This document shows positions 3,897 to 57,129 of a stretch of 64,000 bases of DNA, in pieces. Origin of the DNA: an uncultured Opitutia bacterium (GTDB lineage Bacteria > Verrucomicrobiota > Verrucomicrobiia > Opitutales > Opitutaceae); NCBI GenBank assembly GCA_903873805.1, contig CAIQQB010000015.1, positions 1 through 64,000 of the forward strand. The letters are read 5' to 3'. The position numbers and the translations under genes are program-made. The notes below the pieces were generated by a model. It saw nothing but the letters and a program-made list of their open reading frames with translations. It had not been told where the DNA came from and searched no databases. Position 1 is the stretch's first letter. Each line of letters opens with the position of its first letter.

Positions 3897-4925
3897 ATGA
3901 AATGTGTCCTGCCGCTCCTCGCCGCCCTGACCCTGACCGCCCCAGGCCTTCACGCCTGGGACTACGCCGGGCACCGCATCGTCAACCAGCTCGCGCTGGC
4001 CGGACTGCCGGCGGAGTTTCCCGCCTTCGTGCACGCGCCCGAGGCGGCCGAGCGGATCGCGTTCCTGTCCGGCGAGCCCGACCGCTGGCGCAGCGTGCCC
4101 GACCTCCCACTCCGGCAATCCGGCAACCTGGACCACTATCTCGACCTCGAGCAGCTCGCCGCCGCCGGGATGAAGCCCGACGCCCTCAGCCCGCTGCGCT
4201 TGGAATTCGCCGCCCAGTTCGCCGCTGCCCGCCTCGCGCACCCGGAACAGTTTCCGTCCTTCGATCCCGCCAAGGACACCGACCACACCCGGGAATGGCC
4301 GGGCTTTCTGCCCTGGGCCATCGCTGAATCCTACGCCCGGTTGAAGTCCGCCTTCGCGTACCTGAAGGCTTTCGAGGAGAACGGCACCCCGGCGGAGGTC
4401 GCCAACGCCCGCGCCGACGTCATCTACTACATGGGGGTGATGGGCCACTATGTCGGCGACGGGGCGCAGCCGCTGCACACCACGATCCACAACAACGGCT
4501 GGGAGGGTGACAACCCGCACGGCTACACGACGTGGAAGGGCTTTCACGCCTGGATTGACGGCGGCTTCATCGCGCGGGCTGGCATCAATTATCCGGCGCT
4601 GGCCAATCGCGCCCGGCCCGCCCGCTGGCTCGCGGGCCCGCCCGTCCCCGACCAGCGCGACCCGCTTTTCGACTCCGTGATGAAATACCTCGTGGCCCAG
4701 CACGCCCGCGTCGAGCCGCTCTACCAGCTCGATCTGGCGCACAAGATCGGCGCCAACACCACCGACCTCACCGAGGGCCGCGCCTTCATCGAGGAACAGC
4801 TCCTGCGCGGCGGGGAAATGCTCGCCAGCGTGTGGGTCACCGCCTGGCGCAACGCCCCCGTCGACGTCTATCTCCGCGCCCAGCTGCTCAAGCGGAAGGC
4901 CGACGCCGCGGCCGTCGCGCCTTAA
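3897..4925 (+). CDS. S1/P1-type zinc nuclease, secreted
   Basis: The 342-aa product belongs to the S1/P1 family, which degrades single-stranded nucleic acids outside the cytoplasm using three zinc ions. A signal peptide (MKCVLPLLAALTLTAPGLHA) is followed immediately by Trp. That is characteristic, because the mature N-terminal Trp itself ligates zinc in this family. Further ligands are visible in DYAGHRIVNQ, NLDHYLDLE, MGHYVGDGAQPLHTT and NNGWEGDNPHG. The ATG at 3897 was chosen because only it gives this arrangement. It is divergent from the TIGR03790-type gene. Confidence 0.85.
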   Translation: MKCVLPLLAALTLTAPGLHAWDYAGHRIVNQLALAGLPAEFPAFVHAPEAAERIAFLSGEPDRWRSVPDLPLRQSGNLDHYLDLEQLAAAGMKPDALSPLRLEFAAQFAAARLAHPEQFPSFDPAKDTDHTREWPGFLPWAIAESYARLKSAFAYLKAFEENGTPAEVANARADVIYYMGVMGHYVGDGAQPLHTTIHNNGWEGDNPHGYTTWKGFHAWIDGGFIARAGINYPALANRARPARWLAGPPVPDQRDPLFDSVMKYLVAQHARVEPLYQLDLAHKIGANTTDLTEGRAFIEEQLLRGGEMLASVWVTAWRNAPVDVYLRAQLLKRKADAAAVAP

Positions 4926-54133: not shown

Positions 54134-54141
54134 GAGCTTTG
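54134..54141. repeat. 8-bp target-site duplication, left copy
   Basis: GAGCTTTG directly precedes the left terminal inverted repeat and is identical to 57122-57129 just outside the right one. Confidence 0.93.
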
Positions 54142-54163
54142 GGTACTGGGGTCGTTTGAATTT
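54142..54163 (+). repeat. left terminal inverted repeat
   Basis: This 22-bp end matches the reverse complement of 57100-57121 at 21 of 22 positions. The only mismatch is at the 13th base. Confidence 0.92.
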
Positions 54164-54180
54164 ACCCCAACCCAAAAGGG

Positions 54181-54411
54181 TTAAGTGCCAAGCGGAGGTT
54201 GGGATTGCCCGAGACGCCGGAATGCAACAGAAGTGCGAGCCCAGTAACGGGTCTGGATGGCCGCTTTTAGCTTTCTAGCTTTGTCTGGATCACCCTTGGC
54301 GGCCTGTGCCATTGCGGCATCAAAAGCGTCCTTTTTAACAGCCTGTTCTGAGGCATCGCATTCCTCCATGGCACCGTAAAGCGCCATCAACGCCTCAATC
54401 TGAGGGTTCAT
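54181..54411 (-). CDS. transposon cargo, hypothetical protein 76 aa
   Basis: This unrecognised small protein is helical and charged (DASEQAVKKDAFDAAMAQAA; KARKLKAAIQTRYWARTSV). Its start overlaps the stop of the 54408 gene by 4 bp, implying co-translation, and its stop is only 17 bp from the left inverted repeat. Base composition matches the element, not the chromosome. Confidence 0.65.
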   Translation of the reverse strand: MNPQIEALMALYGAMEECDASEQAVKKDAFDAAMAQAAKGDPDKARKLKAAIQTRYWARTSVAFRRLGQSQPPLGT

Positions 54412-54899
54412 GCCCCAGCCGCAGTCGGGCTAGGCTCAAACATGGCCGTAATCTCTGGGTCTTCTTTTTCGAGAAGCCCCAATTCAAGGATCACATCATC
54501 TTCTACGATTTCTTCGAGACAAGCGACGAGATTTCTCTTGGTAACACCCAAGGGAGACAGGTCGATTTTTTCCGTTTCAATCTGGAGCAAAAGCGCCTTA
54601 CCCGCTGATTTCAACCCAGCGATCATGCAGCCATATCCCAAAAGGCCATTGCCCTCAGGAACACCCGCAACACGGCGAAGGGTCTTGAAAGCAGTAAACG
54701 CACTCAGCCATGAGGCGACGGCCATCAAGGGAACGACCTTTGGTTGGCGAGTGGTTTCTAGGAGTGACGACATCACCACGTCAGCTCCATTAGCCATATT
54801 TTCTCGGTTGGAACCGTAAGCAAAAAACTGCATTCCCCTGGTCTCGGCTGGCAGCCGAGGGGTGCGCAACGGAGGAGATTCGAGCGTTCCTGTGGGCAT
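54408..54899 (-). CDS. transposon cargo, hypothetical protein 163 aa
   Basis: This unrecognised protein has no signal peptide and is probably cytoplasmic, with a helical body (VVPLMAVASWLSAFTAFKTL; LVACLEEIVEDDVILELGLL) and an acidic C-terminus. The ATG at 54899 is 71 bp past the transposase stop codon. An ATG 22 codons later (MQFFAYGS) is an alternative start. It is co-directional with the transposase and the 76-aa gene, so the three may form one transcript. Confidence 0.65.
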   Translation of the reverse strand: MPTGTLESPPLRTPRLPAETRGMQFFAYGSNRENMANGADVVMSSLLETTRQPKVVPLMAVASWLSAFTAFKTLRRVAGVPEGNGLLGYGCMIAGLKSAGKALLLQIETEKIDLSPLGVTKRNLVACLEEIVEDDVILELGLLEKEDPEITAMFEPSPTAAGA

Positions 54900-54970
54900 G
54901 GTGTTGTGGCGAACCTCCCATTTTACGGGTGCGGAGTCAAGCCCCCAGCCATGATTTCCCCTAGGCCGTC

Positions 54971-55816
54971 TCATGCCGCTTTGGCCTCTTGCCAGTCCAA
55001 GAGGGCGATGACCTCGGACAACTCCCAAACATGGTCCGTCACCCCTGCCTGCATGGCGGGGGTGCAACGGATGGTCGAGTGAACCTTGCAAAAGTTGTAA
55101 TGCATGGCGAACAGAGCGAAGGCGTGTTCGTGGTTCTCGGCCTTCTTGCTGTGGGCGTTCGTGAGGCGGGTAAAGCGGCGATTGCCCATGCGGATGGAGA
55201 GGTTGAGCCGTTCAACGTGCGACGTGCTGACGTGGCGGAAATCAGGCTCGCCCGTCACAACGGCCTTGCGTGCGCCCATGCAGACGGCGGGAGAGTAACG
55301 GGCTTCGGTCTTTGGGCCTTCGCCGTAAATCTTAATCAGTCGGGCGTAGTCGATCTCAGAGCCGAAAGCGGACTCAACCGCCGCAAGGTAAGGCGAGTGC
55401 CCGTCGCTGGTAAGCTGCACACGATGGGCGAGCCGCCCGGCAACGTCATGCATGAAGTGGTAGGCCGCGCCAGCGTCGCGGGTGCCGATAAACCAGCACA
55501 GGAGGAGCTTTGATTCGGGGTCAATGGCCGTCCAAGTCCAAATGTCACCCCAGCCTTTGCCCTCATGCTGCGGGCCGACGTTCTTGGCCTTGCATCCGCA
55601 AAACGCCCAAATCTCGTCAACCTGCACGCGCTTGCATTGGAGGTTCACCAGCGCCGCGTCTTGGTAGGCCGTGCAGGCTTTGCCGAGGGCGACGCCAAGA
55701 CGGGAAACGGTTTTCTTGGTGACGCCGCAAATGCGGGCGGTGGCACGGCCGCTGTTTCCGTCGATCAGGCAGGCGATGATCTGGGCGCGTTTTTCAGAGG
55801 GAAGAATGTTTGCCAT
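54971..55816 (-). CDS. IS1-family-like DDE transposase
   Basis: The 281-aa product has an N-terminal HTH (GNSGRATARICGVTKKTVSR) and a DDE core with Asp67 (QVDEIWAFCG), Asp138 (LTSDGHSPY) and Glu202 (TSHVERLNLSIRMGNRRFTR). The sequences GWGDIWTWTAIDPESKLLL and HYNFCKVHSTIRCTPAMQAG are hallmarks of the widespread IS1-type transposases found in environmental genomes. The reading frame is intact with no frameshift, unlike classical IS1 (insA/insB). It lies near the centre of the element. Confidence 0.9.
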   Translation of the reverse strand: MANILPSEKRAQIIACLIDGNSGRATARICGVTKKTVSRLGVALGKACTAYQDAALVNLQCKRVQVDEIWAFCGCKAKNVGPQHEGKGWGDIWTWTAIDPESKLLLCWFIGTRDAGAAYHFMHDVAGRLAHRVQLTSDGHSPYLAAVESAFGSEIDYARLIKIYGEGPKTEARYSPAVCMGARKAVVTGEPDFRHVSTSHVERLNLSIRMGNRRFTRLTNAHSKKAENHEHAFALFAMHYNFCKVHSTIRCTPAMQAGVTDHVWELSEVIALLDWQEAKAA

Positions 55817-55828
55817 GCTGAAACCCTG

Positions 55829-55893
55829 TGCGTGCTAGCACGCATAAGCAAGCAGAAACTTAGAATTAAGTTGACGTGCGTGCAGAAGCGTGC
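55829..55893. promoter_or_regulatory. divergent control region with GCGTGC operators
   Basis: Between the divergent transposase (start 55816) and P63C gene (start 55908) lie a perfect 16-bp palindrome TGCGTGCTAGCACGCA (55829-55844) and two direct GCGTGC boxes 10 bp apart (55878 and 55888). Four copies of the same hexamer in 64 bp imply a repressor binding site controlling both promoters. Confidence 0.65.
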
Positions 55894-55907
55894 AAGCTGG
55901 CAGCACT

Positions 55908-56930
55908 ATGACCGACCATCCATCCATCCAATCCCTCGGCGGCAAAGCCCGTGCCGAGAGCCTCACACCAGAAGAGCGCAGCGCCAGCGCCCGTGTTGCC
56001 GCTATCGCCCGCCATGCCAATAAAGCCGGAGTTCCAACAGCAACCCATGGCTCACCTGATCATCCTTTGAGGATTGGGGGGCAAGAAATCCCATGCTACG
56101 TCCTCGACAACGGAAAGCGGGTGATCACCCAAGGAGGTGTTTTGGCCGCTCTGTCCATGAGCCAAGGAACCGCCACCAAGGGGGGTGGTGATCGAATCGC
56201 CAATTTCATCAACACAAAGGCGATTAGTCCACACGCCAGCAATGCTTTACGCGAGATGATCACGGAGCCGATAAAGTTCCGGGCGCAAGGAACCTTGGCC
56301 TACGGCTACGACGCGACAATCCTACCGGAAATCTGTGATGCGGTTCTGGAGGCGCGCAATAGCGCTGCCGGCATCAACCACCAGCAGGAGCATATCGCCA
56401 AGCAAGCCGAGATGCTCCTGCGCGCTTTTGCCCGCGTCGGTATCATTGCCTTGGTGGATGAGGCTACCGGCTTTCAATATGACCGGCCTAGGCGCGACCT
56501 GGAGGAACAGCTAAAGCGGTTCTTGTCTGAGAGCCTTCGGCAGTGGGTTAAAACCTTTCCCGCCGATTATTTTAAGCACTTGTGCCGTCTAAGGGGCGTT
56601 GAATTGCGCTCCGACATGAAGCTTCCACAGTATTTCGGGAAGCTTACCAACAACTTGATTTATCGGCGTATTGCGCCGGGGCTTCTAAAGAAACTCAAGG
56701 AGCGGAAGAAAGAGCGGGGGCATTCTAGCGACAAACTCCATTCTTGGCTGAGTGAAGACATCGGATTTCGCAGCGTCTTGGTTCACCTTGGAACCGTCGT
56801 CGGCCTCATGAAGATCAACACCGATTATGACGCCTTTGAAGCCCAGCTTAATCAGGTGGCCCCTCTGTATCCGGAAACCCCCGGTCTTTTCGACAATCCC
56901 GCCGACTGGGACGAACCCAAAGAGGGTTAA
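55908..56930 (+). CDS. P63C domain protein (transposon cargo)
   Basis: The 340-aa product matches the phage- and plasmid-associated P63C family. The N-terminus has GGKARAESLTPEERSASARV followed by PLRIGGQEIPCYVLDNGKRV, typical for the family. The middle includes GYDATILPEICDAVLEARNS, and the C-terminal P63C part includes WVKTFPADYFKHLCRLRGVE. Function is unknown; links to phage regulation have been suggested. The ATG at 55908 was preferred to a GTG at 55890, which would overlap the control boxes. It is divergent from the transposase. Confidence 0.88.
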   Translation: MTDHPSIQSLGGKARAESLTPEERSASARVAAIARHANKAGVPTATHGSPDHPLRIGGQEIPCYVLDNGKRVITQGGVLAALSMSQGTATKGGGDRIANFINTKAISPHASNALREMITEPIKFRAQGTLAYGYDATILPEICDAVLEARNSAAGINHQQEHIAKQAEMLLRAFARVGIIALVDEATGFQYDRPRRDLEEQLKRFLSESLRQWVKTFPADYFKHLCRLRGVELRSDMKLPQYFGKLTNNLIYRRIAPGLLKKLKERKKERGHSSDKLHSWLSEDIGFRSVLVHLGTVVGLMKINTDYDAFEAQLNQVAPLYPETPGLFDNPADWDEPKEG

Positions 56931-57061
56931 CGCGTCGCCTTCTGGACCGCCGCAAACGCCCGCTGGAACACGTCGGGGCGTGCGGCGCGCTTAGGGGCTG
57001 TCTTGCCCTTGGCGGGCTTGGCTGCGGGCTTCTTGGCGGTCTTGCGGGTGGGCTTGGGCAT
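56927..57061 (-). CDS. small Lys/Ala/Pro-rich basic peptide, 44 aa
   Basis: A short ORF begins MPKPTRKTAKKPAAKPAKGK, continues with KRAARPD and FQRAFAAVQK, and ends at TAA 56927-56929. The histone H1-like composition suggests DNA binding. It converges on the P63C gene with a 4-bp overlap and starts 38 bp inside the right inverted repeat. Its shortness leaves doubt, but the strongly biased composition argues for a real gene. Confidence 0.5.
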   Translation of the reverse strand: MPKPTRKTAKKPAAKPAKGKTAPKRAARPDVFQRAFAAVQKATR

Positions 57062-57099
57062 GAGCCGAGGTTACGCCCGGCCTACCGCCCGGCAACCGG

Positions 57100-57121
57100 A
57101 AATTCAAAAGACCCCAGTACC
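57100..57121 (-). repeat. right terminal inverted repeat
   Basis: This is the reverse complement of the left end (54142-54163) with one mismatch; its outer end reads CCCCAGTACC. Confidence 0.92.
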
Positions 57122-57129
57122 GAGCTTTG
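57122..57129. repeat. 8-bp target-site duplication, right copy
   Basis: GAGCTTTG is identical to the left copy at 54134-54141, directly outside the right inverted repeat. Confidence 0.93.

Follow-up and report, generated by a model that had tools for sequence, protein, structure and literature searches.

The segment 54142-57121 of the window, the 64,000-nucleotide stretch of DNA that was analysed, is very probably a complete transposon, one of a large family of compact elements that combine an IS1-like DDE transposase with exchangeable cargo. Comparison of the members shows that the backbone of the family is composed of two ends of about 20-22 bp, a gene for a transposase of about 280 residues and, in most members, a gene for a basic protein of about 80 residues. 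Outside the ends, the transposase and the small gene, everything varies among the elements, the cargo being located between these genes and behind them. The member in the window is 2,980 bp long. Its organization, read along the transposase (minus) strand, is left end, 44-residue open reading frame, P63C gene on the opposite strand, transposase, a coupled pair of genes, and right end (Table 1). The cargo of this copy comprises a phage-type P63C gene and a two-gene unit with no assigned function. The products of the two coupled genes have no significant match in Pfam, NCBIfam, PHROG or PADLOC, and no relatives of the larger product were found in viral contigs.

Table 1 Features of the transposon and of its insertion site in the window.
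Feature	Position	Strand	Remarks
Target-site duplication, 8 bp, copy 1, GAGCTTTG	54134-54141	+	Identical to copy 2
Terminal inverted repeat GGTACTGGGGTCGTTTGAATTT, transposase 3' side	54142-54163	+	Fits family consensus end
Cargo gene, 76 residues, function unassigned	54181-54411	-	Start overlaps stop of preceding gene by 4 bp (ATGA)
Cargo gene, about 163 residues, function unassigned	54408-54899	-	Reading frame open further upstream; ATG at 54899 is clear of the transposase
IS1-like DDE transposase, single reading frame, 281 residues	54971-55816	-	D67, D138 and E202 invariant in 13-row alignment
P63C-domain cargo gene, 340 residues	55908-56930	+	Divergent from transposase; PF10546 79.8 bits, phrog_2384 342 bits
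Lysine-rich left-end gene, 44 residues	56927-57061	-	Position and strand as in the small gene of 107 other elements
Terminal inverted repeat GGTACTGGGGTCTTTTGAATTT, left end, transposase 5' side	57100-57121	-	Agrees with the other end at 21 of 22 positions
Target-site duplication, 8 bp, copy 2, GAGCTTTG	57122-57129	+	Identical to copy 1

Transposase and its relationship to IS1

The transposase is encoded by one uninterrupted reading frame of 281 residues, and the two overlapping frames insA and insB of classical IS1 are not present. Residues D67, D138 and E202, which are kept in 13 of 13 aligned relatives, are read as the DDE triad. The matches of the window transposase to Pfam and NCBIfam models are weak; IS1 is the best of the NCBIfam models, with a score of 46.5 bits that lies below the equivalog cut-off of 100. 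All 13 transposases match NF033558. A hidden Markov model of the transposase relatives, compared with a database of the two IS1A proteins of E. coli, matches InsB over the catalytic part (E = 7.2e-9) and InsA over the helix-turn-helix part (E = 7.4e-8). Because both proteins are matched, the transposase seems to unite InsA and InsB in a single reading frame. Three other assignments have been rejected: the IS6/IS26 family (33.2 bits against a cut-off of 125 for NF033587), the IS1595 family (20.2 bits against 75 for NF033547) and, given the 281-residue transposase and 22-bp ends, the Tn3 family.

Target duplications in the IS1 family are 8-9 bp long, a range into which the 8-bp duplication of the window falls, and some long members of the IS1 family are listed in ISfinder. 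The ends have the GGnnnTG form of IS1 ends, with GGTACTG in the window and GGTAGTG in the family consensus; this rule has been reported for IS1 (PMC6807381). The original prediction of an IS1-type DDE transposase is supported. The family resembles IS1A of E. coli in its ends and in having a DDE transposase related to InsA and InsB. However, IS1 is 768 bp long and encodes InsA and InsB, whereas the members of the family are 1.3-6.7 kb long, use a single reading frame, and add a conserved small gene and exchangeable cargo. The transposase would bind the GGTAGTG-type ends and join them to the target at cuts staggered by 8 bp.

Extent of the transposon family

Transposase scans yielded at least 577 related loci when run on genome contigs and 248 when run on viral contigs. 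From each of the two sets 80 were retained, and plasmid copies were added. Ends were searched for around the transposase, first without a motif and then with weight given to GGTAGTG. Among 134 distinct loci with a related transposase, this de novo search identified 102 with matching ends and a perfect 8-bp duplication; the consensus end is GGTAGTGGGTCAGTTTGAAWTT. The sizes of the 134 distinct elements are mostly 1.3-6.7 kb. In the motif-free test, 97 of the 134 loci passed with their true flanks, whereas none of the 134 passed when the right flank was taken from another locus. Other copies of the transposase were also checked for ends placed elsewhere, and the ends proposed for the window element were not refuted. 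The named hosts, mainly metagenome-assembled genomes, belong to at least 12 phyla; one family copy is carried by Oxalobacter.

No genome was found to hold nearly identical copies at two places (best pair, 87%), and current activity is therefore inferred from the clean duplications and empty sites. The ends are regular enough for many further copies to be excised exactly, and the cargo recovered in this way could be read as a natural set of candidates for toxin-antitoxin and anti-phage genes, following the example of Tn7-like elements. In many phyla, genes annotated singly as "IS1 family transposase" turn out to form one end of a small cargo carrier with sharply defined limits. A literature search for ISMhu11 gave no match.

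The 102 target duplications have a symmetric bias, with C or G at both outer positions, T nearly absent from position 1 and A from position 8. Three family transposase copies, two of them partial, lie within 6 kb of contig 54 of genome G541 (68673-74443), in a nested or repeated insertion. Elements L155, L157 and L172 form a subgroup of 1.5-2 kb that lacks the usual small gene and has a gene for 100-127 residues behind the transposase; in L155, the product of this gene begins much like a zinc ribbon and shares the KPKRPRD motif with the small protein.

Small left-end protein

Of 126 elements, 107 have the gene for the basic protein of about 80 residues; it occupies their left end and has the same orientation as the transposase gene. 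The protein is not in Pfam, and a fold search gave no match in the PDB. Its structure, predicted from an alignment without plasmid-record rows, contains three helices (mean pLDDT 86). By our own count in 17 transposase-bearing genomes, 27 of 31 full-length matches to the small protein are positioned upstream of a transposase gene of like orientation, no more than about 3 kb away. The position, conservation and predicted fold of the protein suggest that it may bind DNA and assist or regulate transposition. If so, the family would offer an opportunity to test how an IS1-type transposase works with a very small conserved partner.

The 44-residue reading frame at the left end of the window element resembles, by eye, the left-end reading frames of L021, L052, L057 and L106; its match to the hidden Markov model of the small protein is not significant (E = 11). 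It is probably a remnant or variant of the N-terminal half of the small protein, and the left-end reading frames of the four other elements likewise seem to keep only this half.

The C-terminal hairpin of the small protein is related to the N-terminal hairpin motif of P63C, GGKARAESLTPEERSASARVAA, with which the window P63C protein begins. The hairpin is also found at the start of RhuM-type cargo and of phage P63C proteins generally, and within the window it is present only on P63C. These occurrences speak for the small protein being an independent passenger, either a nucleoid or silencing protein or a partner of the hairpin-bearing cargo. Such a role is possible but rather unlikely, as the small protein stays with the transposase when the cargo changes and is rarely encountered away from it. 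A part in transposition remains the preferred reading. One RhuM-family cargo protein with the shared motif at its start is encoded at L083:4706-5983; the occurrence of the hairpin in RhuM, P63C and the small protein suggests a shared docking or DNA-binding module. The host genome also encodes an 86-residue small protein with the GGKARA hairpin motif and no nearby transposase (G000 contig 67, approximately 4437-4697; L307:2938-3198).

Cargo and its exchange

The most frequent cargo is a PD-Lambda-2_B-like HigA/IrrE gene, which is present in 18 elements with a nearly constant unlabelled partner. It is followed by RosmerTA-type RmrA with toxins (12 cases by clustering, 10 proteins by PADLOC; the name RosmerTA is from PMC10440598) and P63C (11 of 126 elements). 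Further recurrent cargo includes RelE-like proteins (7, labelled from sequence), family c9 (5-7), Panacea (5-6), a ClpP-like protease (5) and AAA_21 (4), and single cases include BglII, zeta toxin and RhuM. When the interiors of the elements were compared with 1,000 kb of flanks from the same loci, using models built from the inside copies, PD-Lambda-2_B-like genes were found 18 times inside and once outside, and RmrA-like genes 16 times and once. Cargo of other elements matches PADLOC models, whereas no window protein does, so that no anti-phage defence system was recognized among the window cargo. The PADLOC "RmrA" matches were considered as possible P63C proteins and rejected, because they are XRE-ImmA proteins. 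A protein of about 160 residues without a known family, encoded at L007:2284-2763 and by homologues in about 17 other elements, is nearly always located beside the PD-Lambda-2_B-like antitoxin and is probably its partner.

Labels of the cargo are scattered across the transposase tree. Elements L169 and L175 have ends that are 100% identical, small genes that are 88% identical and transposase genes that are 84% identical, and they have no other DNA in common. L169 carries RosmerTA-type cargo and L175 an AAA ATPase, and the breakpoints of this clean exchange are visible. L052, L057 and L106 behave in the same way, with related backbones and differing cargo. Cargo may be replaced by recombination between elements through their common backbone sequence. 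Cargo of the toxin-antitoxin or anti-phage kind could keep an otherwise low-copy element in its host, by addiction or by protection from phages, in analogy to the toxin-antitoxin genes of Tn3 (PMC7157771) and the defence cargo of Tn7-like elements (PMC8649781).

Insertion-sequence-like elements with passenger genes that do not serve transposition, called tIS, are already known and occur in several insertion-sequence families (PMC7986276). The window element, which is present as a single copy in its host genome, might accordingly be taken for an ordinary IS1-family insertion sequence that picked up neighbouring genes once and has no wider cargo group behind it. This account is highly improbable and is already refuted by the approximately 126 delimited elements with the same backbone, nearly all of them with extra genes, from at least 12 phyla. 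The family shares with tIS and IS1595-type elements the carriage of genes unrelated to transposition; however, its transposase is not of the IS1595 type, its members carry cargo as a rule, and a conserved accessory gene goes with this cargo.

In Tn3-family transposons, too, toxin-antitoxin genes recur as exchanged parts, but these transposons have a TnpA of about 1,000 residues and ends of 38-40 bp (PMC7157771). By contrast, the family described here has a 280-residue transposase, ends of about 20 bp and a total length of about 3 kb. A similar cargo, rich in toxin-antitoxin and defence genes, is carried across phyla by the backbone of Tn7-like elements (PMC8649781), which have median lengths of 14-29 kb, TnsC and TnsD, and arrays of binding sites, whereas the family is far smaller and employs one transposase. 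Text searches in a collection of open-licence papers did not reveal an IS1-type group described as carrying toxin-antitoxin or defence cargo. We give even chances to the broader proposal that these are undescribed cross-phylum transposons of about 3 kb, in which an IS1-like transposase and a dedicated helper of about 80 residues form a general vehicle for toxin-antitoxin and anti-phage cargo. If this is the case, P63C and the other uncharacterized cargo genes of these elements are candidates for new defence or addiction genes.

P63C gene

The P63C protein of the window scores 79.8 bits with PF10546, for which the Pfam gathering cut-off is 26.1, and 342 bits with phrog_2384, a family of unknown function, over residues 1-321. 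It is a full-length member of both families; it differs from them in being encoded by a transposon and not by a phage or plasmid. The structure model of the protein is of moderate quality (pLDDT 75, pTM 0.53), and its best match in the PDB, the DNA-binding protein DdrC, is weak (E = 0.048). An identification as a known defence gene was rejected, as P63C has no PADLOC match. The protein is probably a DNA-binding regulator or a phage-interfering protein.

Genes for P63C are common in viral contigs and were found in two of 289 genomes of the host phylum; in the second of these genomes, the gene lies near relaxase-like and recombinase-like genes and not in this transposon. Despite this rarity, P63C is present in 11 of 126 elements, which speaks for a conserved role in transposition itself. 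Such a role is very unlikely, since 115 of the elements do without P63C and none of 80 viral P63C loci has a transposase of this kind nearby. On the transposase tree, the 11 P63C elements require 10 changes, against a mean of 9.9 after shuffling of the labels, and L052, L057 and L106, the transposase DNA of which is 79-84% identical, carry a different P63C or none. P63C is, on this evidence, one recurrent and repeatedly acquired cargo. The original prediction had proposed a new cargo-bearing IS1 group in which P63C belongs to a conserved module. Because closely related backbones carry unrelated cargo, the group, with matching ends and a perfect 8-bp duplication at 102 of 134 loci, is supported, whereas the conserved module is not.

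Insertion of the element as a unit

The ends GGTACTGGGGTCGTTTGAATTT and AAATTCAAAAGACCCCAGTACC (57100-57121) agree at 21 of 22 positions as an inverted repeat. The chance expectation for such a repeat together with an 8/8 direct repeat is estimated at about 1e-9 over some 25 million position pairs, and a coincidental origin of the ends and the duplication, already refuted by the mismatched-flank controls (0 of 134) and by an independent empty site, can be dismissed. The end pattern occurs at two sites in the 3.78-Mb host assembly, both of them ends of this element; further copies or solo ends were not found elsewhere in the genome, and the element is single-copy.

The insertion point is situated between a gene for a class-IV aminotransferase and a prepilin-like gene, which are adjacent in several relatives from the same family. 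In one of these, L183, the two genes are separated by 110 bp; in the window, 109 bp are left between them when the element and one copy of the duplication are subtracted. The joined flanks of the window align to L183 straight through the insertion point, with 68% identity over the whole stretch and a loose intergenic part, so that the alignment demonstrates the absence of the element and not the exact junction. The ends and the duplication had been noted from the window with coordinates that are exact to the base, and the accompanying claim of insertion as a unit agrees with the perfect duplication; a lack of an empty site at 54134 in relatives would have told against it, but L183 has such a site. 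Because the duplication is perfect and the transposase intact, the insertion is inferred to be fairly recent. An uninterrupted site is also available for the 3,370-bp copy of Mesorhizobium loti (L007 1799-5168): two other Mesorhizobium plasmids align with its joined flanks over 232 bp without gaps, at 97% identity.
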